Positions 40,198 through 64,000 of a DNA stretch of 64,000 bases are shown piece after piece. Location: contig NZ_CP029191.1 in the NCBI RefSeq assembly GCF_008642335.1, positions 7,130,001-7,194,000 on the forward strand. The letters are read 5' to 3'. The first letter of the stretch is position 1. Every line of letters begins with the position of its first letter. Under the pieces are notes generated by a model. That model saw only the letters and a list, made by a program, of their open reading frames with translations, had not been told where the DNA came from and did no database searches. The position numbers and the translations under genes were made by a program. The stretch comes from Streptomyces venezuelae. Lineage in GTDB: Bacteria; Actinomycetota; Actinomycetes; Streptomycetales; Streptomycetaceae.

Positions 40198-40515
40198 CTA
40201 CGCGGTCGTGTGGGCGAGTTCCTGGCCGAGGTGGTGGGCGAGCTGGGCCGGGGTCGGGTTCTCGACGATGGCGACCATCGCGATCTCCATGCCGGTCAGC
40301 GTCATCAGGGTCTTGGTGAGTTCGAGGGCGGTGAGGGAGTTGAGGCCGTTCTCCAGGAAGTTGCTGTCGTCGCTCAGCGTGGTGTTGAGCAGGTTGCCGG
40401 CCTGCGTGCGGATGGTGTCGGTGAGGAGCTTCTCGCGCTCCTCGGGGGTGGCCGCGGCGAGCTGCCTCTCCAGCTCGGTGGCGTCCTGGCCGGGCGTATT
40501 GTCGGTGCTGGTCAT
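40198..40515 (-). CDS. discrete acyl carrier protein (ACPX-like)
   Basis: 105 residues from ATG 40515 with AGGAG five bases upstream. A single PP-binding domain: EKLLTDTIRTQAGNLLN, FLENGLNSLTALELTKTL with phosphopantetheine Ser60. The usual DSL before the attachment site is NSL. There is a ~25-residue N-terminal arm and no docking helix. It is the last gene of a four-gene operon after KS-AT(dead). In monensin-type polyether clusters a discrete ACPX holds the full-length chain during oxidative cyclisation; this gene is placed where ACPX would be (inference from context). Confidence 0.88.
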   Translation of the reverse strand: MTSTDNTPGQDATELERQLAAATPEEREKLLTDTIRTQAGNLLNTTLSDDSNFLENGLNSLTALELTKTLMTLTGMEIAMVAIVENPTPAQLAHHLGQELAHTTA

Positions 40516-40559
40516 GAATGCTCCTGTGTGAGTGGGGTGTTGACGTGTCACACCGTGTG

Positions 40560-42956
40560 TCACACCGCGGTGTGCGTGGTGTGGTCGTGCAGCCAGTAAC
40601 GCGTGGCCTGGAAGGGGTACGTCGGGAGGTCGACGGTCCGGGGGCGCGGCGTGCGCCGGGTGAGCGGCGTCCAGTCGACCGCGGCGCCCGAGGTGTACAG
40701 CCGCGCGAGCGCCGTAAGAACCGTGCGCGCGGCCGGTGTTGAGGGAGAGAAGGCGCTCAGGTCGAGGAGGGTGTGGGTCTCGGGGGCGTGACCGGGGTCG
40801 TGGTGGGCGGAGGCGAGGTGGTGGTGCCAGTAGCCGGGGGAGGACACGGGGGTGTCGGCCGGGGCGGTGCCGGTGAGTGCGAGCGTCGCGGGCCGGAACG
40901 TCAGGTCCTTCAGCACCGCTTCGTACGCCTCGGGCGTGGGCGACGCGCCTTCCCCCGTGGCCGTGAAGTGGGCCGCGGCCAGGCGGCACGCGTCGTCGAG
41001 GGAAAGGACGCCCGCGGCGTAGGCGGCGGCGATGTGGCCGGTCCCGGTTCCGGACACCGTATGGGCGTGCACCCCGGCTTCCAGCAGCATGTGGGCGAGT
41101 GCCGTGTGCAGCGCGAAGTGCGGGGGCTCGGAAGCCGTGGCCGGGAGGGGCGCGGGGAGGTGGGCGTCGAGGAGGGTCCGGATCTCCTCGTAAATCTCCG
41201 CGAAGAGGGGGAAGGCCGCGGCGAGGTCGGCGGCCGCTGTCTCGGTGCCTGCGGCGGGTGTGCCGTCGAAGTGCCAGGCGATCTTCTTGGGGGTGCCGTC
41301 TGCGGGGGTACGGGTCAGGTCGGGGTGGTCGTCACCGGTAGCCAGCGCGCGGGCCGCGGTGAGGAGACCGGTGGTGTCCGTGCCGGTGAGGACGGCTCGG
41401 TGCTCCAGGGGGCTTCGGGTGGCGGCGAGGGAGTGGGCGACCTCGGCGGGCGAGGGCGAGGGGTCGGCGGCCGCCAGGTGGGTGACGAGCGCCTTCGCCT
41501 GCTCCTGGAGGGCTTCGGGGGTACGTGCGGACAGGGGCCAGGCCACCGGGAGTGCGGGGACCGCTGCCTCGGTGGCCGGTGCGGCGGGAGCGTCCGGGGC
41601 CGGGGGCTCTTCGAGGATGAGGTGGGCGTTCGTGCCGGACGTGGCGAAGGCGGAGATGCCGACCCGGCGAGGCTCGTCGCGGCGCGGCCAGTCCACGGCC
41701 TCGGTGAGGAGCCGGACCGCACCCTTCTTCCAGGCGGCGAGCGGGGTGGGCCGGTCGACGTGGAGCGTCGGCGGCAGCGTGTCGTGCCGGAACGCCTGGA
41801 CCATCTTGATGAGCGCCGCGGTACCGGCGGCGCCCTGCGTGTGCCCGGTGTTGGACTTGACGGAGCCGAGCCACAGGGGCCGCTCGGGGGAGCGGCCCGC
41901 GCCGTAGGTCGCGAGGAGCGCCTGCACCTCGATGGCGTCGCCGATGGGCGTCCCCGTCCCGTGTGCCTCGACGGCGTCGACCTGGTCGGGGGTGAGCCCG
42001 GCGTCGGCGAGCGCGGCACGGATGACGTGCTGCTGGGAGGGGCCGTTGGGGGCCGCGAGGCCGTAGCCCGCGCCGTCCTGGTTCACCGCGGAGCCGCGGA
42101 TGACGGCGAGTACGGGATGGCCGTTGCGCCGTGCGTCGCCGAGCCGTTCGAGGAGGACCAGACCGACCCCCTCGCCCAGTCCCATGCCGTCCGCCGCGGC
42201 CGCGAACGGCTTGCAACGCCCGTCCGGCGCCAGGGACTTCTGATGCGCGAAGGCATGGAAGGTGTGCGGCGTCGACATCACGGTGCCGCCGCCCGCCAGG
42301 GCGAGCCGGCACTCCCCGCGGCGCAGCGCCTGGCAGGCCAGGTGCAGGGCGACCAGGGAGGACGAGCAGGCCGTGTCCACGCTGATGGCGGGGCCTTCGA
42401 GGCCGAGGGCGTACGCGATGCGGCCGGAGACGAGACTGCCGGAGGTGCCGCCGCCCAGGTAGGGCAGCAGCTCGTCGGGCGCGGTCTCCAGACGTGTCGC
42501 GTAGTCGTGCCCGGTGGCGCCCACGTAGACGCCGGTGAGGGTGGAGCGCAGGGTGTGCGGGGCGATGTGGCCGCGCTCGACGGTCTCCCAGGCGAGGTGG
42601 AGCATGAGCCGCTGCAGGGGCTCGGTCGCCACGGCCTCGGCCGCGCCGATGTCGAAGAAGCCCGCGTCGAAACCGGCCGCGTCGTCGAGGAAACCGCCGA
42701 GTTGCGCGTACGGGGGATCCTCGGGGAGCTCCCATGTGCGGTCGTCGGGGAAACCGGTGACGGCGTCACGCCCCTCCGACACCAGGTCCCACAGGTCGTC
42801 CGGGGTGCGGGTCTTGCCGGGGAGCCGGCAGGCCGCCGAGACGACGGCGATCGGCTCGCGCTGCGCGGCCCGGAGGTCACGGAGCTGCTGCTGGGTCCGG
42901 TGCAGCTCGGCGGTCGTCCACTTGAGGTATTCGACGAGCTTCTCTTCGTTCGCCAC
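40560..42956 (-). CDS. ketosynthase with inactive AT-like domain (KSX-like chain-transfer protein)
   Basis: 798 residues from a GTG at 42956, chosen because [21 protein letters not shown] aligns with the N-terminal docking helices of the PKSs at 57189 and 63915. KS (residues ~35-460) is intact: [12 protein letters not shown] with Cys197, [12 protein letters not shown] and [12 protein letters not shown] with both His. An AT-like domain follows but its GHSxG elbow is GTGTG near residue 634 (catalytic Ser lost), the HAFH/YASH specificity motif is absent and the domain is short. The [11 protein letters not shown] post-AT linker ends it; no ACP, KR or TE. A KS that takes chains but does not extend them fits KSX of polyether clusters, passing the chain to the adjacent ACP. 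Confidence 0.85.
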
Positions 42957-43057
42957 GGGAATCGCCGGCCTTCCTCTTCTCGCGCGTGAAGCCTCAGGTG
43001 GGACGGTGTGGGCAGGCGGGAGCCGCACGCTGTCGGTGTCAGGGTTGCCGCGGCTGC

Positions 43058-43990
43058 TTAAGCGGGTCTAACTCCCGCCTTGCCGCGGGGACGCGGCTCT
43101 CTCGCGTACGCCGTCACCTCGGCGGACTCCGTCACCTCGCGGGCGAGGAGGAGGAGGTCGGCGGCGATCTCGTCGGGCGCTCCCGCGTGCAGATCGTGGT
43201 CGGAGCCCGGATACCAGCGCACGCTCACCCGGTCCAGGGCGGCCTCGGCCGCGGCGACCCAGGCACGCACCTGGTCGGAGAGTTGGGGGATCGCCGGGAT
43301 GAGGGGGAGCAGCCGGACCGGCACGGTGATCCTCGGGTACCAGTCGGCGGGGGCCTCGCGCTGCAGGCTCTCGACGATCGACATGACCTGTTCCGAGGTC
43401 ATGCGGGGGATGAGGAGGCCATCCGGGCCGACGCGGTAGTCCGCGAGGCGCGCCTCGATGGAGGTCGACGACCACTCGGGGTGCGTGGCCTTCAGGTAGG
43501 CGCGCATATCGGCGGCGCTCGTGGTGCCCTGCTGCGCGCGCCGCACCACGTCGGCGGTGCGCTCCCAGAAGGCCCGCATCACCGGCCCGTCGAACTCGTA
43601 CCAGCCGCCGTCGATCAGCGCCAGACCGGCCACCAGGTCGGGGCGTTCGGCCGCCAGGCGCAGCGCGAGGTGCGCGCCCCAGGAGTGCCCGGCCACCAGC
43701 GCGCCGGACAGTCCGATGCCGGTGACCGCCTCGACCAGGTCCGTGACGACGGCCGCGTTCTCGTAGCCGTCCGCCGGCGCGTCCGACTCGCCGTGGCCGC
43801 GGTGGTCGACGGCGTAGACCGGGTGCCCGGCGGCGGCGAGCCGGGTGGCGACCTCGTCCCACATGCGGGCGTTCGACAGCATGCCGTGCAGCAGCAGGAA
43901 CGGACGCCCCGCGGCGCCCGGTCCGCCCGCGGGCAGGTGCCGGACGTTGAGGGAGACGGTCCGCGACACGGGGATGCGGAGGTTCTTCAC
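43058..43990 (-). CDS. alpha/beta hydrolase of the polyketide cluster
   Basis: 310 residues from a GTG at 43990. Abhydrolase_1: [39 protein letters not shown], nucleophile elbow GHSWG with Ser103; a His lies in [13 protein letters not shown]. Ser as nucleophile argues for an esterase/thioesterase rather than a classic epoxide hydrolase (which uses Asp). Its place between the methyltransferase and KSX-like genes matches what I recall as MonCII (called epoxide hydrolase, and proposed as a chain-releasing thioesterase like NanE). A role in release from the discrete ACP is thus the favoured guess. Confidence 0.85.
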
Positions 43991-44032
43991 AGGCGGGCCC
44001 CTGAGGAGTCGTCGAGTCGTCTGTTCGGCGGG

Positions 44033-44899
44033 TCAGGGGCGCTGTGCGGTGGCGAAGATGTAGCCGAGTTCGGGCATCTTGCCGAGGGCGGCCTGGTTGT
44101 GCAGGAAGAGTTCGTAGCCCTCGACGCCGATGATGTCGACGTACTCGTCGCGGTGGGCGCGGATCCACTCGACGTACCCGTCGTACGTCTTGGCGGTCTC
44201 GCTGGTGATGTCGGTCAGTTCGAGGACCGTCCAGCCGGCGGCGCGGAAGATGTCGGGGTAGTCCCCGATGTCGGTGAGCGCGGCGTAGATCGTGGTGTCG
44301 CTGACCGTGGCGGTGCGCGGCTTGCTCGGGTCGGGGTTGAGGTACACCATGTCGGCGATCGGCATGCGGGCGCCGGGCTTCACGACGCGGCGGGCCTCGG
44401 TGAGGACCTGCTGCTTGTCGGGCATGTGGAGCATGGACTCCAGGGCCCAGCAGTGGTCGAACGACGCGTCGTCGAACGGCAGGTTCATGGCATCCACCTG
44501 CTCGAACCGGACCCGGTCGGCGAGACCGGCCTCCCGCGCCCTGCGGTTGCCGCGCTCGACCTGGCGGGCGCTCACGGAGATGCCGACGACCTCGACGTCC
44601 CGTGCGCGGGCCAGCTGCATCGCGGGGGTGCCGTTGCCGCAGCCGATGTCCAGGATGCGGTCGCCGGGCGCGGGGTCGAGGCGGCGGATCATCTCGTCGG
44701 TCATCTGGACCATGGCCTGGTCGAATGTGGCCTCCTGTCGGCCGCTGTCGAACCAGTAGCCGTAGTGCAGGTTGCCGTCTCCGAGCTGGGTCATCAGGTC
44801 GAAGACCTTGTGGTCGTAGTAGTGGCCGATGTCGCTCGGTTCGGGGGCGACGGTCTTGTTCACCGTCGGGGGCTTCTTGGTCGTCGCGTTGTTCGTCAC
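44033..44899 (-). CDS. SAM-dependent O-methyltransferase (MonE-like)
   Basis: 288 residues from GTG 44899; GTG 44902 and a longer start at 44923 are possible and no ribosome site decides. Class I methyltransferase: RILDIGCGNGTPAMQLA (SAM glycine loop), VGISVSARQVERG, FEQVDAMNLPFDDASFDHCWALESMLHMPD. The N-terminal HYYDHKVFDLMTQLGDGNLHYGYW is typical of small-molecule O-methyltransferases near RebM. In a monensin-like cluster this would be the 3-O-methyltransferase acting late on the chain or product. It is the first gene of the minus-strand operon and is divergent from the exporter. Confidence 0.88.
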   Translation of the reverse strand: MTNNATTKKPPTVNKTVAPEPSDIGHYYDHKVFDLMTQLGDGNLHYGYWFDSGRQEATFDQAMVQMTDEMIRRLDPAPGDRILDIGCGNGTPAMQLARARDVEVVGISVSARQVERGNRRAREAGLADRVRFEQVDAMNLPFDDASFDHCWALESMLHMPDKQQVLTEARRVVKPGARMPIADMVYLNPDPSKPRTATVSDTTIYAALTDIGDYPDIFRAAGWTVLELTDITSETAKTYDGYVEWIRAHRDEYVDIIGVEGYELFLHNQAALGKMPELGYIFATAQRP

Positions 44900-44957
44900 C
44901 ACCTCAGCGTCACGGCGCCGCACGCGCTGTCACAACCCCACCCCTGCCCCTCAACAG

Positions 44958-44988
44958 CCCCTAGGGCGCTCTCCGGCCCACCCCTAGG
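44958..44988. repeat. CCCCTAGG direct repeats in the bidirectional promoter region
   Basis: CCCCTAGG at 44958-44965 and 44981-44988, starts 23 bp apart (about two turns), between the methyltransferase and exporter genes. The spacing suits tandem binding on one DNA face, for example by an SARP or similar activator. No such regulator is in the window. Confidence 0.45.
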
Positions 44989-45012
44989 AGAGAGGCCTCC
45001 GGACGCCTTCTC

Positions 45013-45033
45013 TTGACGCGTTCCATACGGAAC
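45013..45033 (+). promoter_or_regulatory. candidate exporter promoter with TetR-type dyad
   Basis: TTGACG (45013-45018) is followed at once by the dyad GTTCC-ATAC-GGAAC (45020-45033). No convincing -10 is visible at 17-18 bases. The dyad is a candidate operator for the TetR regulator encoded two genes down. An AT-rich tract (45049-45060) and a strong AGGAGGT precede the exporter GTG. Confidence 0.45.
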
Positions 45034-45107
45034 CCCTGGTACCACGAGATAAAAAATGAGAGTACGCTCCGACTAGATATTGAGCTCTCTTTAGGAGGTC
45101 GACTCTC

Positions 45108-46643
45108 GTGTCAGCAGATCTGGGTGCGCGGCGGTGGTGGGCCGTCGGGGCTCTCGTGCTCGCGTCGATGGTCGTGGGCTTCGACGTGACGATCCTGAGC
45201 CTGGCGCTGCCCGCCATGGCCGACGATCTGGGTGCGAACAACGTCGAGCTGCAGTGGTTCGTGACCTCGTACACGCTCGTGTTCGCGGCGGGAATGATCC
45301 CCGCGGGCATGCTCGGTGACCGGTTCGGGCGTAAGAAGGTGCTGCTGGCCGCGCTGGTGATCTTCGGCATCAGCTCGCTGGGCTGTGCCTACGCCCAGGA
45401 CTCCGGCACGTTCATCGGCGCACGTGCGGTGCTCGGCCTGGGTGCCGCGCTGATCATGCCGACGACGCTGTCGCTGCTGCCGGTGATGTTCTCCGACGAG
45501 GAGCGCCCCAAGGCCATCGGCGCCGTGGCGGGCGCCGCGATGCTGGCCTATCCGCTCGGCCCGATCCTGGGCGGCTACCTCCTCAACCACTTCTGGTGGG
45601 GCTCCGTCTTCCTGATCAACGTGCCCGTGGTGATCCTCGCCTTCCTGGCGGTGTCGGCCTGGCTGCCCGAGTCCAAGGCCAAGGAGGCCAAGCCCTTCGA
45701 CGTGGGCGGCCTGGTGTTCTCCAGCGTGGGTCTCGCCGCGATGACGTACGGCGTGATCCAGGGCGGCGAGAAGGGCTGGACCGACGTCACCACCCTCGTG
45801 CCGACCCTGGGCGGCATGCTCGCCATCGTGGTCTTCGTTTTCTGGGAGAAGCGGGTGGCCGATCCGCTGGTCGACCTCTCGCTGTTCCGCTCGGCCCGGT
45901 TCACCTCGGGCACCGTGCTCGGCACCGTCATCAACTTCACGATGTTCGGCGTGCTGTTCACGATGCCGCAGTACTACCAGGCGGTCCTCGGCACCGACGC
46001 GATGGGCAGCGGTTTCCGGCTCCTGCCGATGGTCGGCGGCCTCCTCGTCGGTGTGACCGTCGCCAACAAGGTCGCCAAGGCCCTCGGCCCGAAGACCGCG
46101 GTCGGCATCGGCTTCGCGCTCCTCGCCGCCGCCCTCTTCTACGGCGCGACGACCGACATCGACAGCGGCACCGGCCTCGCCGCCGCGTGGACGGCGGCGT
46201 ACGGCCTCGGCCTCGGCATCGCCCTGCCCACCGCCATGGACGCGGCACTCGGCGCGCTCAACGAGGACGCCGCCGGCGTCGGCTCCGGCGTCAACCAGTC
46301 CATCCGTACCCTCGGCGGCAGCTTCGGCGCGGCCATCCTCGGCTCCATCCTCAACTCCGGCTACCGCGGCAAGCTCGACCTCGACGGAGTCCCCGAGCAG
46401 GCACACGGCGCCGTCAAGGACTCCGTGTTCGGCGGCCTCGCCGTGGCCAGGGCGATCAAGAACAACGGGCTCGCCGAGTCGGTGCGGACCGCGTACGTCC
46501 ACGCCCTGGACGTGGTCCTCGTCGTCTCCGGCGGCCTGGGACTGCTCGGCGTGCTCCTCGCGGTGGTGTGGCTGCCCCGCAGTGTTGGTCAGAGCACCCC
46601 GAAGCCCGCAGAATCTGAGCATGAAGCAGCAGACGCAGTCTGA
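45108..46643 (+). CDS. MFS exporter, DHA2/EmrB-QacA type (MonT-like)
   Basis: 511 residues from GTG 45108 with a near-perfect AGGAGGT at nine bases. Fourteen predicted helices. MFS motif A: GMLGDRFGRKKVLLA; motif C region: GPILGGYLLNHFWWGSVFLINVPV, typical of drug:H+ antiporters. It lies next to a TetR gene that overlaps its end. In the monensin cluster the MonT exporter gives self-resistance by pumping out the ionophore; the location here fits the same role (inference). Confidence 0.92.
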   Translation: MSADLGARRWWAVGALVLASMVVGFDVTILSLALPAMADDLGANNVELQWFVTSYTLVFAAGMIPAGMLGDRFGRKKVLLAALVIFGISSLGCAYAQDSGTFIGARAVLGLGAALIMPTTLSLLPVMFSDEERPKAIGAVAGAAMLAYPLGPILGGYLLNHFWWGSVFLINVPVVILAFLAVSAWLPESKAKEAKPFDVGGLVFSSVGLAAMTYGVIQGGEKGWTDVTTLVPTLGGMLAIVVFVFWEKRVADPLVDLSLFRSARFTSGTVLGTVINFTMFGVLFTMPQYYQAVLGTDAMGSGFRLLPMVGGLLVGVTVANKVAKALGPKTAVGIGFALLAAALFYGATTDIDSGTGLAAAWTAAYGLGLGIALPTAMDAALGALNEDAAGVGSGVNQSIRTLGGSFGAAILGSILNSGYRGKLDLDGVPEQAHGAVKDSVFGGLAVARAIKNNGLAESVRTAYVHALDVVLVVSGGLGLLGVLLAVVWLPRSVGQSTPKPAESEHEAADAV

Positions 46644-47232
46644 CCAGGGCAGAACCGTGCCTGGACTGAGAGAACGCAAGAAAGCCAGGACCAAGGCCGC
46701 GATCCAGCGGGAGGCGGTGCGCTTGTTCAGGGAGCAGGGCTACACCGCCACGACCATCGAGCAGATCGCAGAAGCCGCCGAGGTCGCCCCCAGCACCGTC
46801 TTCCGCTACTTCGCGACCAAGCAGGACCTGGTCTTCTCACACGACTACGACCTGCCCTTCGCCATGATGTTCCAGGCCCAGTCGCCCGACCTGACACCGA
46901 TCCAGGCCGAACGACAGGCCATCCGTTCGATGCTGAACGACATCTCCGAGCAGGAACTGGCCCTGCAGCGCGAACGCTTCGTGCTCATCCTCTCCGAGCC
47001 GGAGCTCTGGGGGGCCAGCCTGGGCAACATCAGCCAGACCATGCAGCTCCTCGGCGAACAGGTCGCCAAGCGGGCCGGGCGCGATCCGGGGGACCCCGCG
47101 GTCCGCGCCTACACCGGGGCCCTGTTCGGCGTGATGCTGCAGGTCTCCCTTGACTGGGCGAACGATCCGGAGATGGACTTCGCGGCCACTCTGGACCAGG
47201 CGCTCTTCTGCCTGGAAGACCTGCGTCCCTGA
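46621..47232 (+). CDS. TetR-family repressor (MonRII-like)
   Basis: 203 residues from ATG 46621, overlapping the exporter gene by 23 bases; no strong ribosome site, so coupling is likely. HTH: LRERKKARTKAAIQREAVRLFREQGYTATTIEQIAEAAEVAPSTVFRYFATKQDLVF (landmarks). The C-terminal part carries a ligand pocket of the MftR-like type. It probably represses the exporter operon until the product or an intermediate binds. Confidence 0.92.
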   Translation: MKQQTQSDQGRTVPGLRERKKARTKAAIQREAVRLFREQGYTATTIEQIAEAAEVAPSTVFRYFATKQDLVFSHDYDLPFAMMFQAQSPDLTPIQAERQAIRSMLNDISEQELALQRERFVLILSEPELWGASLGNISQTMQLLGEQVAKRAGRDPGDPAVRAYTGALFGVMLQVSLDWANDPEMDFAATLDQALFCLEDLRP

Positions 47233-47324
47233 TGTCGTACGCGACAGCCCACGGCGGGCGGTTGCGTACGAAGTAGGACGACCGCGCGCGGCCACCGCCC
47301 CCCGGCTGCCGCGTCCGGTCCAAC

Positions 47325-47361
47325 CTGGCGTGCTCCGGCTTCCCTCGACGGAGCACGCCAG
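47325..47361. terminator. bidirectional hairpin terminator
   Basis: Perfect 12-base stem CTGGCGTGCTCC / GGAGCACGCCAG with a 13-base loop, followed by GGGTCTTTCC. It lies between the converging TetR and thioesterase genes. Confidence 0.78.
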
Positions 47362-47398
47362 GGGTCTTTCCGGGCCGCGCACGCTCTCCCTCCCGCCG

Positions 47399-48184
47399 TT
47401 ACGCTCCGACGGCCGCTGTCAGCGCCGCGGCCACGATCGACGCAACCTGCTCCTGACAGGCGTCGAGGTAGAAGTGACCGCCCGGCAGCACCCGGAGATC
47501 GAACTCCGCACTGGTACGCTCCCGCCACGTGCCGGCCTCCTCCGGCGAGGTCCGCTCGTCGGCGTCACCGATCAACGCCGTGATCGGGCAGTCCAGACGC
47601 TCAGGACCCGGCGCCTCGTACGTGGCGACCGCCCGGTAGTCGGCCCGCAGCGAGGGCAGGATCAGCTCCTGCAGCTCCGGGCTCCGGAAGAACCGCTCGT
47701 CGGTGCCGCCCATCGCCCGCAGATGCGCCAGGATGTCCGCGTCGTCCAGGGCCCCGGACCGCCCGGCGGGACGGTAGGGGCGGGCGAGCCCGCCGGAGGC
47801 GAACAGGTGCACGGGGCCGGTTCCGCCGGGGCCGGAGTCCCGCAGGCGCCGCGCCACCTCGAACGCCACGATCGCGCCCAGACTGTGCCCGAGCAGGGCG
47901 AACGGCGTTCCGTCGGACGGCAGTTGCTCCACGACCCCGTCGGCGAGCGCGGCCACCGACTCCAGACACGGCTCCTTGTGCCGGTCCTGCCGCCCCGGAT
48001 ACTGCACGGACAGCACGTCGATGCCGGGCGAAAGCAGCCCGGAGAGGCCGAACCAGTAACTCGCCGAGCCACCCGCGAACGGGAAGCAGATCAGCCTCAC
48101 CGGTGCCGCGGCGGAGTCGTGGTACCGCCGCAGCCACACCCCGGCCCCCGTGTTCCGCGGCGCCTGCGCAGTGCCCCTGTCCAT
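47399..48184 (-). CDS. type II thioesterase
   Basis: 261 residues from ATG 48184 (GGGAG four bases upstream); an 18-codon upstream extension has no similarity. Thioesterase family: RLICFPFAGGSASYW, VQYPGRQDR, nucleophile elbow LLGHSLGAIVAFE with Ser101, ALIGDADERTSPEEAGTW (Asp) and LPGGHFYLD (His), so a complete triad. Type II enzymes clear wrongly loaded acyl groups from ACPs. Its placement before the first PKS gene matches MonAIX as I recall. It is read away from the PKS. Confidence 0.93.
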   Translation of the reverse strand: MDRGTAQAPRNTGAGVWLRRYHDSAAAPVRLICFPFAGGSASYWFGLSGLLSPGIDVLSVQYPGRQDRHKEPCLESVAALADGVVEQLPSDGTPFALLGHSLGAIVAFEVARRLRDSGPGGTGPVHLFASGGLARPYRPAGRSGALDDADILAHLRAMGGTDERFFRSPELQELILPSLRADYRAVATYEAPGPERLDCPITALIGDADERTSPEEAGTWRERTSAEFDLRVLPGGHFYLDACQEQVASIVAAALTAAVGA

Positions 48185-48246
48185 CGCTCTCCCTCTCGTG
48201 CCGGTGCCCTTCCGGCCCCGATGCTGGCCGCGACCCATAGCGCCCG

Positions 48247-54300: not shown

Positions 54301-57182
54301 CCGAGGGCGACGTACGGCTGCTCACCGGCCGTATCAGCGGGCACAGCCACCCGTGGCTCACACAGCACACCCTCTTCGGCACCGCCGTCGTGCCCGCCTC
54401 CGTGCTCGCGGAGTGGGCGCTGCGCGCCGCCGACGAGGTCGGTTGCGCGGGTGTCGAGGACCTGACGCTTCAGGCGCCTCTGGTGCTGCCCGACACGGGG
54501 GGCGTGCAGGTGCAGATCGTGGTGGGGGCGGCCGACGGGGACGGCGGGCACCGGGACGTGCGCGTCTACGCCCGTCCTGACGACGAGGATGCTCTCGCCG
54601 GAGGCGGTGGGGGGTGGACGTGTCATGCGTCGGGGCAGCTCGTCGCCGAGTCCGCGGGCGTGGACGCGCGTGACGGGGACGATTTGGGTGGGGCGTGGCC
54701 GCCTGCTGGTGCCGAATCCGTCGACCTGAGCGACTTCTACGAGCGGGCCGCCGCGAGTGGTGTGGGTTACGGACCGGCCTTCACGGGACTGCGCGGCCTG
54801 TGGCGGCGGGGTGAGGAACTGTACGCCGAGGCGGCACTGCCTCAAGAGGCCCCGGACGGAACGGGGTTCGGCCTGCATCCGGCGCTCCTCGACGCCGCAC
54901 TGCACCCCGCCCTCCTGGTCGAGCCGCCGGCCGGGGCCGAGCAGGTGTGGCTGCCGTTCAGCCTGACCGGGGTGTCGCTGTGGGCCACGGGTGCGACGTC
55001 CGTACGTGTCCGCCTCACGCCGTCGGGCGAGGACGGACCGCTCCCGGAAGGTTCGGGCCGGAGCTGGCGGGTCGCGGTGAGCGATCCGACGGGGGCGAAG
55101 GTGCTGACCTGCGAGGGGCTTGCCGTGGTCGCGGCGGGGCGCGGGGTGTTGCGGGGCGCCGGGCGGGGTGCGGCGTCCGATCTGTATGCGTTGCGGTGGG
55201 TGCCGGTGGCGGTGCCTGTGGCGGGTCGGAAAGCACAGTCGGCGGGCGGTGGGGTCTCGACGGGGGAGCTTCCGTCGGGGTGGGTCCGTCTGGGCGACGG
55301 TGGGTACCGCGATCTGGACGCTTTGTGCGCGGCCGTCGACGCGGGGGCACCGCTTCCGTCCGTCGTGCTTTCCGACGTGGTGGGCGTAGGGGCGAGTGAG
55401 GCTCCGGCCGCGGTGGAGCGTACCGCCGCGCTCCTGGACCGCTGGCTCGCCGACGCCCGCTTCGCCGACGCACGTCTGGTGCTGCTCACGCACGGCGCGG
55501 TCGGCGGGGACGACGGCGCGCTGCCCGACCCGTCGGCCGCCGCGGTGCGCGGCCTCGTCCACCAGGTGCAGGCCGACCATCCGGGCCGTTTCCTCCTCGT
55601 CGACGCGGAAGCCGAGGGTGGGGTGGAAGGGCCGGTCCTGGAACGCGTCGTGGCAGCGGCCGTGGACGGCAACGAACCTCAACTCGCCCTCCGGGGCGGC
55701 CAAGTACTGGCCCCCCGGCTTCACGCCACCGCCCCGACGATGACGTCCGTGACGCCAACGTCCATGAACACGCGGGCACTTGACCCGGACGGCACGGTGC
55801 TCCTCGTCGGCTCGGCCGGGGCGCCCGTCGCCGCCCTCGCGGCACACTTGGTGCGCGGCGAGCAGTGCGGACATCTGCTGATCCTCGCCGAGGACGAACT
55901 CGGCCTGGACGCGGACGAGTTGCGGGCGGCGGGTGCCGTCGTGCACTCGGACGTCCTCGACCCCACAAACCCTGCCGCGCTCACAGAAGCCGTCGCCGCC
56001 GTCGGCGCGGACCACCCCCTCACCGGAGTCATCCACGTCACCGGCGCCTCGACGGGCGGTTCGTTCGCGGACGGGTGGGCAGCGAGGGCAGCCGTCACCG
56101 CGGCCCTGGACGCCGCGACGGCACACCTTCCCCTCGCCCTCTTCGCCGTACTGTCCCCGGCCGGCGCGGATCTGGGCATCCCGCGGTCCGCGGCGGACGC
56201 CGCGGCCGACGCGTTCCGCGAGGCACTCGCCCTGCGCCGGCACACCGCCGGTACGACGAGCGTCGCCCTCGCCTACGCCCTGCCGCCCACCGACGAGAGC
56301 CCCGACTCGCCCCACGTACCCGGCGTCAAGGCCCCCGAGCCCGACAAGCTCCCCGCCCTCCTGGACGCGGCCCGCGCACATGCGGGCACCCCCCTCGTCG
56401 GGGCCCGCCTGGCCCCTCGCACACTGGCCTCCGCAGACCCCGACGTCCTCCCCGCCCCGCTCCGCGGACTCGCCGCGCCGCGCGCGCAGGCCCGGCGTAC
56501 CGCCGCCGACCGCACGCCGCCCACGGACTGGTCGGCACGCCTGGCCTCCCTGTCCGCCGCCGAACAGCTCCGGCTGCTCACCGAGGCGGTACGCACCCAC
56601 GCCGCCGCGGTCCTCGGCCGCACCGACCCGGAGGCGCTGCGCGGCGACGCCACGTTCAAGCAGCTGGGCCTGGACTCGCTGACGGCCGTCGAGCTGCGCA
56701 ACCGGCTCGTGGCGGACACGGGGCTGCGCCTGCCCACGGCCCTCGTCTTCCGCCACCCCACACCGGCCGCCGTCGCCACCCATCTGCGCGAGCGTCTGAC
56801 CGCCGGTGGCGAGCGCCCCAACGGCGGCAAGGCAGCCGCCCCGGCATCGGCCGGACCGCCTGCGCCGGACGCGGTGCTGGACGACCTCACCCGCATGGAG
56901 AGCAGCCTCGCCACCCTGGCGACCCGGTTGCCCCACGGCGAGTCGGGCGAGATCACCAGCCGCCTGGAGGCGCTCCTCGCCCATTGGAAGGCCGCGAACG
57001 TCACGGCGGACGGCACGCCGAGCGGCACGAACAACACCTCAAGGAACGGCACGTCGGACGACGACAGCGCCGCCGACCGGCTCAAGGTCGCATCCGCCGA
57101 CCAGATCTTCGACTTCATCGACAACGAGCTGGGTGTCGGGCCCGACACCTCGCGCGCCACCCCCACTCCGAAGGCCGGGTGA
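48399..57182 (+). CDS. type I PKS: loading module KSQ-AT-ACP and module 1 KS-AT-DH-KR(inactive)-ACP
   Basis: 2927 residues; start GTG 48399 or ATG 48402. Loading module: KSQ (~15-435) with Gln174 in TVDTAQSSSL replacing Cys; AT with GHSVG (Ser636) and HAFH (736-739), so malonyl; ACP with Ser987. Decarboxylation gives an acetyl starter. Module 1: KS from ~1050, Cys1224 in [11 protein letters not shown] with GHSQG (Ser1683) and YASH (1782-1785), so methylmalonyl; DH with HTLFGTAVVP (His1990) and LLDAALH (Asp2165); KR remnant ~2465-2660 whose cofactor loop is VGSAGAP and whose Lys, Ser and Tyr sites are gone; ACP Ser2760. C-terminal docking helices ~2830-2927. Predicted product: 2-methyl-3-oxobutanoyl-ACP. 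This layout matches MonAI. A 6-base gap precedes the next PKS gene. Confidence 0.93.
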   Translation: MMATSPSGASAGPEPIAVVGMACRLPGAPDPAAFWRLLSEGRGAVRDTPPERRRTDSGLRGPGGYLDRIDGFDAPFFHAGPREAEAMDPQQRLLLELSWEALEDAGIPAPALARSRTGVFVGALWDDYADVLNRATRNAVTRHTMTGVHRSILANRISYAYHLTGPSLTVDTAQSSSLVAVHLACESIRRGECETAFAGGVNLICSPRSTALAEARFGGLSATGRCHTFDARADGFVRGEGGGLVVLKPLGAAQRDGDTVYCVISGSAVNSDGATDGLTLPSGQAQRDVVRMACGRARVTPDQIQYVELHGTGTPVGDPIEAGALGAALGQDGARTEPLTVGSAKTNVGHLEAASGIVGLIKTALSIHHRKLAPSLNFDTPNPAIPLADLGLTVQREAGEWPRPERRLIAGVSSFGMGGTNGHVVVAEAPVVEGSADAGLRSAEPASVARRPALVPWPVSAHSASALPAQAARLRAHLAAHPATPDATRIGHALATTRAPLAHRAVLLGGDTADLLGSLDALAAGDESAAVIRGEAVPDGKTAFLFSGQGAQRPGMGRELYAAHPVFADALDEAFAALDVHLERPLREIVLGEDAERQGLLDRTEYTQPALFAIETSLYRLTAAHGLTPDYVLGHSVGEIAAAHVAGVLSLADASALVAARGRLMQAVRAPGAMAAWQATADEAAELLAGHEERAAVAAVNGPESVVVSGDRDTVEELTLAWQAYGRKARRLKVSHAFHSPHMDSVLDELRAVAAGLTFHAPVIPVVSNVTGELVSADGTEQADPEYWARHAREPVRFLDGVRGLCERGVTTFVELGPDAPLSAMARECFPAADSVDGGPGSGSGRPRPAAVAACRRGRDEAHTFMAALAQAYVRGADVDFTAAYGSLGDTERVSLPTYAFQRKRYWPEAEPAEYREVREPSAPEESGPRPVGGARTDLAERLAALSVADQERTLLGLVAKQIAVVLGGTSATVETARTFKQSGFDSMAAAELSERLGTVTGLPLPATLTFDHPTPLAVAGYLRARLTGAGGEDLARPAGRPAPGPSGTDDDPIAIVAMSCRYPGGAGTPEDLWRLLADGADAIGAFPTDRGWDLERLFHPDADRSGTSSTRQGGFLYEAADFDAEFFDISPREALAVDPQQRLLLECAWEAFERAGLDPRALKGSPTGVFVGMTGQDYGPRLHEPSRSTDGYLLTGSTPSVASGRLSFSFGLEGPALTVDTACSSSLVTLHLAAQALRRGECDLALAGGATVLATPGMFTEFSRQRGLAPDGRCKPFAESADGTGWAEGVGLVLLERLSEARRKGHEVLAVIRGSAVNQDGASNGLTAPNGPSQQRVIRAALADARLAADEVDAVEAHGTGTTLGDPIEAQALLNTYGQGRSPERPLWLGSVKSNIGHTQAAAGVAGVIKMVLALRHDLLPATLHVDEPSGHVDWSSGAVRLLTEPVVWPRGDRPRRAAVSSFGISGTNAHLVLEEARPQEARTAVESADAGAGAADGVVLPWVVSGRSGEALREQARRLGEFVASGGPGGTASVTEVGRALATKRSVFEHRAVVVGRDRDALTDGLEALASGAVSPGVVSGVASGDVGPGPVLVFPGQGSQWVGMGAQLLDESPVFAGRIAECEQALSAYVGWSLREVLRGDGRELARVEVVQPVLWAVMVSLAAVWADQGITPAAVVGHSQGEIAAAVVAEALTLEDGAKIVALRSRALRQLSGAGAMASLGVGQERAAELVEGRPGVGIAAVNGPSSTVISGPPEQVAAVVADAEARGLRGRVIDVDYASHSPQVDTITDELTRILAGIRPVQAPVAFYSAVTGTRIDTTGLDTDYWVTNLRRPVRFADAVSALLADGHRVFIESSSHPVLTLGLQETFEEAGVDAVTVPTLRREDGGLSRLALSLAQAFVAGCAVKWEGWFPGSGAVGSPALPTYAFQRRRYWLEASGGSQDAAGLGLAAVGHPLLGAAAELAEGDVRLLTGRISGHSHPWLTQHTLFGTAVVPASVLAEWALRAADEVGCAGVEDLTLQAPLVLPDTGGVQVQIVVGAADGDGGHRDVRVYARPDDEDALAGGGGGWTCHASGQLVAESAGVDARDGDDLGGAWPPAGAESVDLSDFYERAAASGVGYGPAFTGLRGLWRRGEELYAEAALPQEAPDGTGFGLHPALLDAALHPALLVEPPAGAEQVWLPFSLTGVSLWATGATSVRVRLTPSGEDGPLPEGSGRSWRVAVSDPTGAKVLTCEGLAVVAAGRGVLRGAGRGAASDLYALRWVPVAVPVAGRKAQSAGGGVSTGELPSGWVRLGDGGYRDLDALCAAVDAGAPLPSVVLSDVVGVGASEAPAAVERTAALLDRWLADARFADARLVLLTHGAVGGDDGALPDPSAAAVRGLVHQVQADHPGRFLLVDAEAEGGVEGPVLERVVAAAVDGNEPQLALRGGQVLAPRLHATAPTMTSVTPTSMNTRALDPDGTVLLVGSAGAPVAALAAHLVRGEQCGHLLILAEDELGLDADELRAAGAVVHSDVLDPTNPAALTEAVAAVGADHPLTGVIHVTGASTGGSFADGWAARAAVTAALDAATAHLPLALFAVLSPAGADLGIPRSAADAAADAFREALALRRHTAGTTSVALAYALPPTDESPDSPHVPGVKAPEPDKLPALLDAARAHAGTPLVGARLAPRTLASADPDVLPAPLRGLAAPRAQARRTAADRTPPTDWSARLASLSAAEQLRLLTEAVRTHAAAVLGRTDPEALRGDATFKQLGLDSLTAVELRNRLVADTGLRLPTALVFRHPTPAAVATHLRERLTAGGERPNGGKAAAPASAGPPAPDAVLDDLTRMESSLATLATRLPHGESGEITSRLEALLAHWKAANVTADGTPSGTNNTSRNGTSDDDSAADRLKVASADQIFDFIDNELGVGPDTSRATPTPKAG

Positions 57183-57188
57183 CCCCAC

Positions 57189-60100
57189 ATGGCGAGTGAA
57201 GAGCAACTGGTCGAGTATCTGCGCAGGGTGACCACCGAGCTCCACGACACGCGTCGGCGCCTGGCGCAGGAGGAGGACCGCAGGCACGAGCCGATCGCGG
57301 TCGTCGGGATGGCCTGCCGCTTCCCGGGCGGCGTGGCCTCCCCGGAGGACCTCTGGGACCTCGTCGCCGCGGGGAAGGACGCCATCGAGGACTTCCCGAC
57401 CGACCGCGGCTGGGATCTTGAGGCGCTCTACCACCCGGACCCGGCCCACTACGCCACCAGCTACGTGCGCCACGGCGGTTTCGTCGACGACGCGGGCTCC
57501 TTCGACGCCGACTTCTTCGGCATCAGCCCGCGCGAGGCGCTGGCGATGGACCCGCAGCAGCGCCTGATGCTGGAGACGTCCTGGGAGCTGTTCGAGCGTG
57601 CCGGCATCGACCCCGTCTCCCTCAAGGGCAGTCTCACGGGCGTCTACGCGGGTGTGTCGAGCGAGGACTACATGTCCCAACTCCCGCGCATCCCCGAAGG
57701 GTTCGAGGGGCACGCCACCACGGGCAGCCTCACGAGCGTCATCTCCGGCCGGGTGGCCTACAACTATGGCCTCGAAGGCCCCGCCGTCACCGTCGACACG
57801 GCCTGCTCCGCCTCGCTCGTCGCGATCCATCTGGCGAGCCAGGCGCTGCGCCAGGGCGAGTGCGACCTGGCGCTCGCGGGCGGGGTGCTCGTGCTGTCGA
57901 GCCCGCTGATGTTCACCGAGTTCTGCCGCCAGCGTGGACTCGCGCCGGACGGCCGCTGCAAGCCGTTCGCCGCCGCGGCGGACGGCACCGGCTTCTCCGA
58001 GGGCATCGGCCTGATCCTGCTCGAACGCCTCTCGGACGCCCGCCGCAACGGCCACAACGTCCTGGCCGTCGTCCGCGGCTCGGCCGTGAACCAGGACGGC
58101 GCGAGCAACGGCCTCACTGCCCCCAACGACGCCGCGCAGGAACAGGTCATCCGAGCCGCCCTCGCGAGCGCCCGCCTCGCCCCGGCCGAGGTGGACGCGG
58201 TCGAGGCGCACGGCACCGGCACCAAACTGGGCGACCCCATCGAGGCCGGCGCCCTGCTCGCCACCTACGGTCAGCACCGCGAGCGGCCGCTCCTGCTCGG
58301 CTCCCTCAAGTCCAACATCGGCCACACACACGCCACCGCCGGTGTCGCCGGAGTCATCAAGACCGTCATGGCGATCCGCAACGGTCTGGTGCCCGCCACA
58401 CTCCACGTCGAGGAGCTCAGCCCGCACGTCGACTGGGACGCGGGCGCGGTCGAGGTCGTCACCGAGCCCACACTCTGGCCCGACACAGGCCACCCGCGCC
58501 GTGCGGGCGTGTCCGCGTTCGGGATCTCGGGGACCAACGCCCATCTGATCCTGGAGGAGGCGCCGGAGCACACATCGGAGTACACGCCGGAGGAGGTACC
58601 TGGTCATCACCCGTCCGTGGCGGGCAGCGCGGTGGTTCCGTGGGTGGTTTCCGGCAGGACGCCCGAGGCGCTGCGCGAACAGGCCCGCAGGTTGGGCGAG
58701 TTCGTGGCCGGGGACACGGAGGCGCTGCCGGGCGAGGTCGGCTGGTCACTGGCGACGACGCGGTCGGTGTTCGAGCACCGGGCCGTGGTGGTGGGCCGGG
58801 ACCGGGACGCGTTGACGGACGGTCTTGGGGCGTTGGCGTCCGGTGCGGTGTCGCCGGGTGTGGTGTCCGGGGTGGCGTCGGGTGATGTGGGTCCTGGCCC
58901 GGTGTTGGTGTTTCCGGGGCAGGGGTCGCAGTGGGTGGGGATGGGGGCTCGGCTGCTGGACGAGTCACCCGTGTTCGCGGCGCGTATTGCCGAGTGCGAG
59001 CAGGCGCTGTCCGCGTACGTTGGCTGGTCGTTGTGTGAGGTGTTGCGCGGGGACGGGAGTGAACTGTCCCGCGTCGAGGTCGTGCAGCCGGTGTTGTGGG
59101 CGGTGATGGTGTCGCTGGCTGCGGTGTGGGCTGACCAGGGGGTCGCTCCGGCTGCGGTGATCGGGCATTCGCAGGGTGAGATGGCTGCCGCGTGTGTGGC
59201 GGGTGCGTTGTCGTTGGAGGATGCGGCGCGGATCGTGGCGGTACGCAGCGACGCGCTGCGGCAGCTGCAGGGGCGCGGCGACATGGCGTCCGTCGGCGCG
59301 GGTGCCGAGCGGGTCGCCGAGCTGATCGCGGACCGGCCGGGCGTGAGCGTCGCGGCTGTCAACGGGCCGTCGTCCACCGTCATTTCGGGCTCGCCCGAGC
59401 ATGTGGCTGCTGTGGTCGCCGAGGCGGAAGGCCACGGGCTGCGGGCTCGGGTCATCGACGTCGGCTACGCCTCCCACCACCCGCAGATCGACGCACTCCA
59501 CGACGAGCTGACCGAGCGTCTGGCCGACATCCGGCCCGTCCCGACCGACGTCGCGTTCTACTCGACCGTCACCGCTGAGCGCCTCACCGATACCACCGTG
59601 CTCGACACCGACTACTGGGTCAGCAACCTCCGCCAGCCCGTCCGCTTCGCCGAGACGGTCGAAGCGCTCCTCGCGGACGGCTACCGGCTGTTCATCGAGG
59701 CCAGCGCCCACCCCGTCCTCGCACTCGGCATGGAGGAGACCATCGAGCAGGCCGACGTGCCCGCCACCGTCGTCCCCACCCTCCGGCGCGACCACGGCGA
59801 CACCGTCCAGCTCACCCGCGCCGCCGCGCAGGCCTTCGCGGCGGGTGCCGACGTCGACTGGCGGCGCTGGTTCCCGGCCGACCCCGCCCCTCGTACCGTC
59901 GACCTGCCCACGTATGCCTTCCAGCGCCGACGCTACTGGCTGGCCGACACGGTGAAGCGGGAGGACGTCGGGCAACAGGGGTCGGCCGGGTCCGGCCACC
60001 CGCAGTTGCCCACCGCCGTCGCGCTCGCCGACGGGGGAGTGGTGCTCAACGGCCGGGTCTCCGCCGAGCGTGGGGACTGGCTGGGCGGGCATGTGGTCGC

Positions 60101-63100
60101 CGGGACCGTCCTGGTGCCGGGTGCGGCGTTGGTCGAGTGGGTGCTGCGGGCCGCCGACGACGCGGGCCGCGCGACGCTCCAGGAGCTGACGCTGCGGGCG
60201 CCTCTCGTGCTGCCCGAGACCGGTGGCCTCCAGGTTCAGGTCGTCGTCGATGCCGCCGACGAGCAGGGCAGGAGCGACGTACGCGTGTACTCGCGTCCTG
60301 AGCGGGACGCCGGGGCCGTGTGGGTGTGCCATGCCGTCGGCGAGCTGGGGCGGGAGCCGGGGGTAAGGCCTGCGCGGCAGGCCGGTGCGTGGCCTCCGGC
60401 GGGCGCGGAACCGGTGGACGTCGGCGCGTTCTACGAAGGTGTCGCCGCCGCCGGATACGAGTACGGTCCGGCGTTCCGCGGACTCCGTGCGATGTGGCGG
60501 GACGGAGCGGAGCTGCTGGCGGAGGTGGAGCTGCCCGAGCAGGCCGGTTCGCCCACCGGCTTCGGCATCCATCCCGCGCTGCTGGATGCCGCTCTGCACC
60601 CGCTGCTCGCACAGCGGAGTCTCGACGAGGGTGGTTCCGGGGCCGCGAATGAGCAGGTGTTGCTGCCCTTCACCTGGAGCGGTGTCTCGCTGTGGGCCAC
60701 CGATGCCACGTCCGTGCGGGTGCGCATCAAGGGGCTCAGTGCGCTCAGTGCGCTCGGTGGGCCGGGTCGGCCGCGCGCGAGCGGTGAGGAGACCGTGTCG
60801 CTCGTCGTGACCGATCCCGCCGGGGCTCCCGTCCTCGACGTCGCCGAGCTGCGGCTGCGGTCCACCAGTGCCCGGCAGGTGCGGGCGGCGGTCGGGTCGG
60901 TCGGGTCCGGTGCCGATGGGCTGTACGAACTGCGGTGGACGCCGCTGCCCGTGCCGGCGGCCCCGGGTGGGGCGGACGCGGCCGATGCCGGCGGCTGTGT
61001 GACGCTCGGGGGGCTGGACGTCGAGGGAGTACGGGACCTCGCCGCGACCGACGCCACGCCACCCCCTGTGGTGCTGGTGCCTGTGGACGCTCCGGATGCG
61101 GTGACCGGTGGGGACGGATTCGCCCTGACGGTACGTGTGTTGACCCTCGTCCAGGAGTTTCTTGCCGAGCCCCGCCTTGAGCAGACGCAGCTCGTCTTCG
61201 TCACTCGGGGCGCGGCCGGTCCCGACGATGAGGAAGACGGGGTTGCGTACGCGCCGAACCAGGCGGGCGCGGCCGTGTGGGGCCTGGTGCGCAGTGCGCA
61301 GTCGGAGAACCCGGGGCGGTTCGTCCTGCTCGACATGGATGTCGCTCTCGATCCCGACGACCATGAGGTTCTGCGTACTGTCCAGTGCGCTACCGACGTC
61401 GACGAGCCCCAAGTCGCCGTGCGAGGCGGACAGTTGCTGTTGCCCAGGTGGGCGCGGGCCGATGCGACGGCCGAGGTGTCCGGGCCGCCCGGTGCGCGGG
61501 CCTGGCGGCTCGTCGGCGGTGCATCCGGAACGCTCGACGCCGTCGAGGCCGTGGCCTGCGAAGAGGTGCTGAGCCCCGTGGAGCCGGGGCAGGTCCGCAT
61601 CGCCGTGCACACGGCCGGCGTGAACTTCCGTGACGTACTGATCGCGCTCGGCATGTATCCGGACGCCGACGCGCTGCCCGGCACCGAGGCGGCCGGTGTG
61701 GTGACGGAGGTCGGGCCGGGCGTCACCGGGCTGGCCGTGGGCGACCGGGTGATGGGCATGCTGGAGGGCGCCTTCGGGCCGTGGGCCGTCGCCGACGCGC
61801 GCATGCTGGCGCCCGTTCCGGCCGGCTGGGACATGCGGCAAGCGGCCGCCGCCCCGGCCGCGTTCCTCACCGCCTGGTACGGCCTGGTCGAGCTGGCCGA
61901 ACTGCGGGCGGGCGAACGGGCGTTGATTCATGCCGCCACAGGCGGCGTGGGCATGGCGGCGGTGCAGATCGCCCGGCACATCGGGGCCGAGGTGTTCGCC
62001 ACCGCCAGTCCGGCCAAGCACGGCGTGCTGGAGGAGATGGGGATCGACGCCGCCCATCGCGCCTCCTCCCGGGACCTCGCCTTCGAGGACGCGTTCCGGC
62101 AGGCCACCGGCGGCCGCGGCGTGGACGTCGTACTCAACAGTCTCACCGGCGAACTCCTCGACGCCTCCCTCCGGTTGCTCCGCGAAAGTGCGGGCGGGCG
62201 CCTCGTCGAGATGGGCAAGAGCGATCCGCGTGACCCCGAACTGGTCGCGCTGGAGCACCCCGGAGTGTCGTACCAGGCCTTCGACCTGGTCGCCGACGCC
62301 GGGCCCGAGCGGCTCAGGCGGATGCTCGACCTGCTCGGCGGCCTCTTCGCCGACGGCACCCTGGTACCGCTGCCGGTCGCGGCACGGCCCCTGGGGCGGG
62401 CACCCGAGGTGTTCCGGCACATGAGCCGGGCGAAGCACATCGGCAAGCTGGTGCTCGACGTGCCCGCTCCGCTCGACCCCGACGGCACCGTCCTCGTCAT
62501 CGGAGGCACCGGCACGATCGGCGCCGCCGTCGCCGAACATCTGGCGCGCACGGGCGAGAGCAGGCACCTGCTCATCGCGAGCCGCAGCGGAGACGCGGCA
62601 GAGGGCGCGAGGGAACTCGCCTCACGGATTGTCGAAGGGGGTGCCGACGTCACCTTCGCGGCCGTCGACGTGAGCGAGCCCGGCGCCGTCGCCGCGCTGA
62701 TCGCCGGGATCGATCCGGCGCACCCGCTGACCGGCGTCGTGCATGCCGCCGGTGTGCTCGACAACGCCATGATCGGCGGCCAGAGCCCGGAAAGCCTCGC
62801 CAGGGTGTGGGCGTCGAAGGCGGCGGCCGCGTACGAACTCCACGAAGCCACGCGCGAGATGCGGCTCGGCCTGTTCGTGACGTTCTCCTCCTTCGCCTCC
62901 ACCCTGGGCACCCCCGGCCAGGCCAACTACGCCGCGGCCAACGCCTACTGCGACGCCCTGGCCGCGCACCGCCGCGCGGAGGGCCTCGCCGGGCTCTCCG
63001 TGGCGTGGGGGCTGTGGGAGACCGCCAGCGGCCTGACCGGCACGCTGTCCGCGGCCGACCGAGCCCGCATCGACCGGTACGGCATCAAGCCGACCGGCGC

Positions 63101-63857
63101 GGCCCGCGGCTGCGCCCTACTGGCCGCCGCACGCGCCCACGGACGTCCCGACCTGCTCGCGATGGACCTCGACCCTCGTGTTCCGGCCGCCTCCGACGCG
63201 CCTGTCCCCGCCGTCCTGCGCACGCTGGCGGCGACGGCCGCGGCGACATCCACCACGGCGCGTCCCACCGCGGCCGCGGCGGGCGAGGCCACGGACTGGT
63301 CCGGCAGGCTCGCCGGCCGCACCGCCGAGGAACGTCTTGAACTCCTCACCACGCTGGTGCGCACCCAGGCGGCCGGCGTGCTCGGCCACGCGGACCCGGA
63401 CGCCGTGCAGGTCGACACGCCGTTCAAGGAGCTCGGCCTCGACTCGCTCACCGCCGTGGAACTCCGCAACAGGCTTGCCGCCGCGACCGGCCTCAAGCTG
63501 CCCGCGGCGCTCGTCTTCGACTATCCCCAGGCCCACATGCTCGCCGCCCACCTGGCCGAACGGCTCGCCCCCGACGAGGCGGCGCAGGCGGGACGGACGG
63601 GCCGGGCGGCGAACGGCGACATGACCGCCCAGGTCCTTCAGGAGGTGGCCCGGGTCGAGCACGCCCTGTCCGCCGCCGTCGCCCAGGGACTCGACCGGGC
63701 AGCTGTCGCGGCCCGCCTGGAGGCACTGCTCGCCCGCTTCGCGGCGAGCACGTCGAGCGCGGCCGCCGCGGCGGACGGCGACGACGCGGTGGACCAGCTG
63801 GAGACGGCCACCGCCGAGCAGGTACTGGACTTCATCGACAACGAACTCGGGGTGTGA
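57189..63857 (+). CDS. type I PKS: module 2 KS-AT-DH-ER-KR-ACP
   Basis: 2222 residues. N-terminal docking helix [22 protein letters not shown] Cys206 (VDTACSASL). AT GHSQG (Ser661) with YASH at 760-763, so methylmalonyl. [12 protein letters not shown] (His968) and LLDAALH (Asp1133). ER ~1470-1765 with [14 protein letters not shown] and NADPH loop [13 protein letters not shown] (~1581). KR with GGTGTIG (~1773), FSSFAS and NYAAAN (Tyr1914), active; B-type LDD is LDN. ACP Ser2086; C-terminal docking helices ~2150-2222. All reductive domains look active, so the beta-carbon becomes CH2. ER Tyr in ALGMYP suggests a 2S methyl. Same domain set and single-module size as MonAII. No Shine-Dalgarno; coupled to the gene before. 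Confidence 0.94.
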
Positions 63858-63914
63858 GCCGCGTGCCGGCCGCACACCTCGCGTCGCGATCACGGGCGGG
63901 GAGTTAAAGCGCAC

Positions 63915-64000
63915 ATGGTGAGCGAAGAGAAACTGGTCGACTACCTCAAGCGTGTCTCCGCGGATCTGCACGCCACCCGGCAGCGGCTGCGCGAGGCGGA
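63915..64000 (+). CDS. type I PKS, N-terminal docking region (continues beyond window)
   Basis: Partial, 28 codons from ATG 63915 with GGGGAG 11 bases upstream. MVSEEKLVDYLKRVSADLHA aligns with the docking helices of the two other cluster proteins that accept chains (42956 and 57189). It should receive the chain from module 2. It follows the module 2 gene by 57 bases. By analogy it would hold modules 3 and 4 (MonAIII-like). Confidence 0.88.
   Translation, partial: MVSEEKLVDYLKRVSADLHATRQRLREA

Follow-up and report, generated by a model that had tools for sequence, protein, structure and literature searches.

A predicted monensin biosynthetic gene cluster, complete in gene content, at the end of a Streptomyces venezuelae sequence window

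Introduction

Which compound would be made by the polyketide synthase (PKS) locus that begins at the right-hand end of a 64,000-nucleotide stretch of Streptomyces venezuelae DNA (assembly GCF_008642335.1, contig NZ_CP029191.1)? We call this whole stretch the window. It corresponds to G000:C1:7130001-7194000 in a genome that consists of a single contig of 8,048,154 bases. An initial annotation, made from the letters of the window, had proposed the left end of a monensin/nigericin-type polyether ionophore cluster. We added the 100 kb to the right of the window and continued its numbering (genome position minus 7,130,000, given below as region positions). The extension supported the proposal. Very probably, the window ends inside a cluster for the veterinary antibiotic monensin that is complete in this genome; it spans about G000:C1:7170198-7267775 (region 40198-137775), and roughly its left quarter lies inside the window. 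This reading is based on which genes are present and in what order, on the chemistry of the modules, on active-site motifs and on how closely the enzymes are related to the solved monensin enzymes. Mon names were assigned by domain class, by position and, where tested, by sequence. The coding frames in the window are multi-kilobase and match Pfam with E-values down to 4e-175, far beyond chance.

Results

The enzymes that a polyether pathway needs after chain assembly were located to the right of the window, where the initial annotation had advised looking for them. The flavin epoxidase MonCI (region 116149-117603), MonBII (region 117600-118013) and MonBI (region 118068-118502, from the list of open reading frames and the translation) all lie on the minus strand. 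MonCI scored 950 bits against its solved counterpart in an alignment covering residues 1-477 of 484, compared with 442-444 bits for the lasalocid epoxidase (Lsd18/LasC), the next best solved family. The best matches of MonBI and MonBII were the solved MonBI and MonBII. In the excerpted text of the MonCI structure paper, Arg412 and Arg454 of MonCI form salt bridges with MonACPX, in which Ser60, Glu55, Glu65, Glu77 and Glu99 are named (PMC10560226). The alignment places the two arginines here at Arg404 and Arg446, and the discrete acyl carrier protein (ACP) of the window has Ser60 and the four glutamates at the positions given. A normal thioesterase (TE) domain in the last module, with no epoxidase or MonB homologs, had been named as the outcome that would speak against the proposal. 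We found the epoxidase and both cyclases, and no TE domain on the last PKS protein (Pfam, 1e-5), which ends 111 residues past its ACP.

The gene order at the left end, which the initial annotation had likened to that of the monensin cluster, is in place throughout. It starts with the discrete ACP of MonACPX type (40198..40515, minus strand, 105 aa; Pfam PP-binding 7.7e-9, residues checked). The discrete ketosynthase (KS) of MonKSX type follows (40560..43028, minus strand), as assigned from Pfam, the translation and motifs. It carries a docking domain and an intact Cys-His-His set, and its region resembling an acyltransferase (AT) has GTGTG in place of the GxSxG serine motif, in agreement with the earlier description of a KS with a dead AT. 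By these residues, the protein is read as a MonKSX-type transferase and not an extension module. Next, on the same strand and assigned from Pfam, are an alpha/beta hydrolase resembling the chain-releasing thioesterase MonCII (43058..43990) and a S-adenosylmethionine methyltransferase of MonE type (44033..44923), the class responsible for 3-O-methylation. The plus strand then holds a DHA2-family major facilitator superfamily (MFS) exporter of MonT type (45108..46643; Pfam; NCBIfam TIGR00711, 264.5 against a cut-off of 230.2) and a TetR-family regulator of MonRII type (46582..47232; Pfam TetR_N and TetR_C_14). A type II thioesterase of MonAIX type (47399..48238, minus strand; Pfam Thioesterase 7.2e-47) precedes the PKS genes for the loading module with module 1, for module 2, and the next PKS.

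Eight PKS proteins were counted, with 12 extension modules, in agreement with the approximately 12 expected. They are MonAI (48399..57182, loading module and module 1), MonAII (57189..63857, module 2), MonAIII (63915-76202, G000:C1:7193915-7206202, modules 3 and 4, with 63915..64000 inside the window and 12.2 kb beyond it), MonAIV (region 76272-88313, modules 5 and 6), MonAV (region 88363-100476, modules 7 and 8) and MonAVI (region ~100500-105767, module 9), all on the plus strand, and MonAVIII (region 118499-129640, modules 11 and 12) and MonAVII (region 129701-134737, module 10) on the minus strand. The split per protein is therefore the loading module plus 1, 1, 2, 2, 2, 1, 1 and 2, which we take to be the split in Streptomyces cinnamonensis as well. 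The mon cluster of that species shares the eight PKS genes, the twelve extension modules and the AT count, and its MonCI, BI, BII, CII, D, E, T, H, RI, RII, AIX, AX, KSX and ACPX all have counterparts here. MonCI differs between the two at several dozen positions in the alignment.

The chemistry that had been read from the loading module and modules 1 and 2 in the window was confirmed. An acetyl starter is indicated by the loading module (KSQ 48438-49604, AT 50028-51038, ACP 51261-51479), whose KS has Gln for Cys (DTAQSSS) and whose AT has the malonyl motif HAFH. Module 1 (KS 51552-52775, AT 53175-54128, ACP 56571-56798) has a methylmalonyl AT (YASH) and a dead ketoreductase (KR, 55779-56291) that lacks both the NADPH motif and the Ser-Tyr-Asn residues. 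This KR is a 37% remnant in a BLASTP comparison and has no Pfam KR match at 1e-10. The initial annotation had not listed the dehydratase (DH) of module 1 (54270-55106). It keeps its motifs, and no hydroxyl substrate is expected for it. Module 2 (KS 57288-58508, ACP 63339-63578) combines a methylmalonyl AT (58899-59858, YASH) with intact motifs for full reduction in its DH (59997-60893), enoylreductase (ER, 61539-62459) and KR (62469-63038). A motif scan suggested that the KS active site was missing in AII and AVI; we rejected this, as DTACSASL contains the normal Cys.

All 13 ATs could be read. From the loading module through modules 1 to 12, the motifs are HAFH; YASH, YASH, HAFH, YASH, VAGH, HAFH, YASH, HAFH, HAFH, YASH, YASH and YASH. 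This gives five malonyl ATs (HAFH), seven methylmalonyl ATs (YASH) and one ethylmalonyl-like AT (VAGH) in module 5. We assume that VAGH marks ethylmalonyl and that the ethylmalonyl AT belongs at module 5 of monensin. The count equals the published one: the excerpts of two accounts derive monensin A from five malonyl, seven methylmalonyl and one ethylmalonyl units (PMC7074812; PMC6963833). For ethylmalonyl-CoA, the genome has one crotonyl-CoA carboxylase/reductase gene (ccr) above the family cut-off, located elsewhere at 6785326-6786519. A control search found a ccr match in 13 of 14 genomes, and it was above the cut-off in only one.

The reductive domains were read as follows. Module 1 leaves a keto group; modules 2, 4, 6 and 8 reduce fully (DH, ER and KR); modules 3, 5 and 7 leave alkenes (DH and KR, no ER); module 9 leaves a keto group; and modules 10 to 12 leave hydroxyls, with KR as the only reductive domain in modules 10 and 11. 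These domains predict the monensin triene, provided that the KR of module 9 and the DH of module 12 are silent. Modules 10 and 11 (G000:C1:7248499-7264737) carry one and the same KR motif stretch, SSGAGVWGSGQQGAYGAAN, which hints at a recent module duplication or gene conversion.

Several observations weigh against monensin. The KR of module 9 has a full-length Pfam KR match (2.7e-24) and keeps Ser-Tyr-Asn; we read it as dead on the altered NADPH motif (GGVGRLT) alone. Module 12 has a DH that the product does not need, with Asn for Gly in the His motif, and a stretch of 115 residues that BLASTP matches weakly to an ER but Pfam does not call at 1e-5; its predicted hydroxyl depends on reading both stretches as inactive. 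Finally, a 7.5 kb block, described below, is not known from the published monensin cluster.

One rival is a cluster of laidlomycin type. Laidlomycin has the same carbon skeleton, built with methylmalonyl at module 5, and its O-3 bears an acyl ester where monensin has the methyl ether, so that its cluster would presumably have a methylmalonyl AT at module 5 and no 3-O-methyltransferase. A cluster of this type would share the gene set. In Streptomyces sp. CS684, which we take to be a laidlomycin strain, the epoxidase is 83% and the MonCII-like protein 78% identical to those here, among the matches listed. Module 5 here has VAGH and not YASH. The MonCI score of 950 bits against monensin's own enzyme also speaks for monensin; listed relatives with similar scores are 89-91% identical. 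The ethylmalonyl-type AT motif and MonE set the present cluster apart from that of CS684. The CS684 label is missing among the 48 relatives of MonE, a weak point, as the label of S. atriruber is missing there too.

We used the distribution of MonE among relatives to follow this question. MonCI was scanned against 392 genomes of the genus, of which 335 had a match at 1e-30. Identity above 80% was found in only three other genomes (G081 94%, G032 87% and G051 82%), and the next full-length matches were at 62-63%. A protein search at 1e-100, limited in its scoring to the 7993 candidates with the most words in common, gave 342 MonCI relatives; among the best 120, which were listed, the nearest were two S. 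venezuelae-labelled proteins (96 and 95%) and one from Streptomyces sp. Je 1-369 (94%). The 15 named loci compared included ones with MonCI identities of 95% in S. atriruber (L047), 87% in S. aurantiacus (L046), 82% in S. olivoreticuli (L048) and 78% in S. acidiscabies (L049), and in all four BI, BII and CI stand in the same order as here. For the MonCII-type hydrolase, 139 relatives were found at 1e-60; among the best 120 of these, a S. atriruber protein had 90% identity, one from S. olivoreticuli 82% and the CS684 protein, labelled 'epoxide hydrolase', 78%. Relatives of MonE in other Streptomyces were at 80-91%.

MonE was then compared in six genomes. It was present in this genome (100%), G081 (97%), G032 (85%) and S. 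acidiscabies (80%), and no close MonE was found in S. olivoreticuli (at most 40%) or G051 (36%), whose epoxidases, like that of CS684, are at about 82%. The relatives with epoxidases at 94, 87 and 78% thus carry MonE, whereas both relatives at 82% are without it. The relatives therefore split into a monensin-like and a laidlomycin-like group, and the window falls on the monensin side. Because of this distribution, we lowered the already small probability of a laidlomycin-type cluster here, and we now consider it very improbable. The monensin-like epoxidase loci of S. olivoreticuli (L048) and of G051:C1 (~650536-651978), in genomes without a close MonE, are themselves candidates for laidlomycin-type clusters.

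Many of these genes would also be found in a longer polyether cluster, of nigericin type or another. The loci L053-L059 share KSX, ACPX, CII, a P450, an epoxidase and two cyclases with the locus here; we take L053-L060 to be nigericin-type by this layout. The enzyme classes are the same, but the epoxidase identity is only 61-63% in L053-L060, and the gene order differs. In six of the seven loci L053-L059, homologues of KSX, ACPX and CII lie within 10 kb after the epoxidase; in the present cluster these three genes stand at the extreme left. The remaining locus, L058, has no CII match in its stretch and has a second epoxidase. More than 12 modules would be expected for such a cluster, and there are 12 here, in monensin order. 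A nigericin-type origin is hardly credible. The AT count, MonE and the epoxidase identity point to monensin rather than to laidlomycin or nigericin.

One feature departs from the expected layout. We take monH and monCI to be neighbours in the published S. cinnamonensis cluster. Here monH (plus strand, after MonAVI) ends at region 108601, and five genes on the minus strand separate it from monCI, in a 7.5 kb block to the right of the window (region 108602-116148, G000:C1:7238602-7246148). They encode an ABATE/CGNR protein (region 109037-109621), two ABC-F proteins (region 109652-111352 and region 111442-113160), a protein labelled helix-turn-helix (HTH)-like from its sequence (region 113651-114649), for which there was no Pfam or NCBIfam match, and an alpha-lytic-type (secreted-type) protease (region 114731-116134). 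An uninterrupted monH-monCI pair is not part of the chemical definition of a monensin cluster. In S. aurantiacus and S. acidiscabies, unlike here, monH stands beside monCI, with 147 and 83 bases, respectively, between the end of the monCI match and the start of the monH match, and the block is not there. Elsewhere among the 15 loci, L051 had a weak partial monH match (34%), and the remaining loci had none in the stretch compared, including the 10 kb examined in S. olivoreticuli.

The block is shared, at least in part, with S. atriruber. There, the protease and HTH-like genes come after monCI, and an aldehyde dehydrogenase and a TetR-domain frame follow the block genes on the contig. In G081, which we take to be a S. 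atriruber genome, the ABATE/ABC-F part immediately adjoins the 3′ half of monH on contig C569, with the 5′ half on another contig. The block is thus at least partly common to the two lineages. Similar DNA occurs widely, with one or more matches at 1e-20 in 147 of 150 genomes; among the matches listed many are a single ABC-F or ABATE gene. At least 12 genomes besides G000 and G081 have both ABC-F genes in one contiguous match, again among the matches listed. Of the 150 genomes, 30 contain a match to the HTH-like protein at 1e-30.

Could the insertion have broken the cluster? A monensin cluster that no longer works, through the insert between monH and monCI or through point changes, is very unlikely. 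The insert sits between a convergent gene pair and leaves both genes intact. No internal stop interrupts any of the eight PKS frames, and their KS, AT and ACP motifs are present. At least part of the block occupies the same place in S. atriruber, where MonCI is 95% identical.

We also considered the ABC-F genes as a source of monensin resistance. ABC-F proteins protect ribosomes. The pair is also contiguous in genomes with only a common-level epoxidase match (for example G020, G003 and G111, with best epoxidase E-values of 4e-102, 1e-92 and 2e-102). For these two reasons, the occurrence of the pair without a close MonCI and the known role of the family, we dropped this reading. In the simplest reading, the block is probably passenger DNA that settled between two convergent genes. 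It is improbable that the lineage common to this strain and S. atriruber recruited the two ABC-F genes, the HTH-like gene and the protease gene of the block into its monensin regulon; if it were true, the recruited block could, for example, keep translation running under ion stress.

The other genes at the right end complete the set. They are a P450 of MonD type (region 134836-136086, plus strand), a SARP regulator of MonRI type (region 136145-137185, minus strand) and a second type II thioesterase of MonAX type (region 136942-137775, minus strand). The last two frames overlap as called, and at least one start has been placed too far upstream. By domain class and position, the MonD P450, MonE, MonT, the regulators H (LAL), RI (SARP) and RII (TetR) and two type II thioesterases are thus all present; the three regulator classes are those given in the excerpted text of PMC11903796.

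Outside the cluster, a histidine kinase gene (minus strand) and a LuxR-type response regulator gene (plus strand) lie divergently at window positions 38168-40180 and adjoin the ACP gene on its left. This pair is a possible cluster boundary or local regulator, and the literature examined does not name it as part of mon. At G000:C1:5419975-5437132, PKS-like pieces have 67-80% DNA identity to the 62000-64000 part of the window, and they probably belong to a second modular PKS cluster.

Discussion

The gene set allows a pathway to be proposed, with the order of its steps inferred from the S. cinnamonensis literature and general background on the pathway. The eight PKS proteins would build the linear triene premonensin from five malonyl, seven methylmalonyl and one ethylmalonyl units. 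Once complete, the chain would be moved by KSX from the last module, which has no TE, onto the discrete ACPX. There MonCI would convert the alkenes of modules 3, 5 and 7 into three epoxides. MonBI and MonBII would open these in a cascade to form the ether rings, MonE and MonD would decorate the molecule, MonCII would release the product and MonT would export it. The strain would thus be expected to make monensin A/B.

A limited literature search found no published account of the cluster in this strain or in the S. venezuelae-, S. atriruber- and S. aurantiacus-labelled strains, which is a weak negative. We set aside the 'monensin gene cluster' of S. benahoarensis (PMC9149447), which the excerpted text describes by actI-homologous genes (citing Arrowsmith 1992) and by ketoacyl synthase and ACP names, a different kind of PKS.

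As far as gene content shows, this Streptomyces appears to hold one more complete monensin cluster. The pathway is well studied and this further copy of it is ordinary; it leaves views on how polyethers are made unchanged, and the small lineage-specific insertion is its only unusual feature. What it offers is a single-contig genome with a monensin cluster, which can serve as a second reference when MonCI, MonB and PKS sequences are compared; the strain is perhaps another producer.

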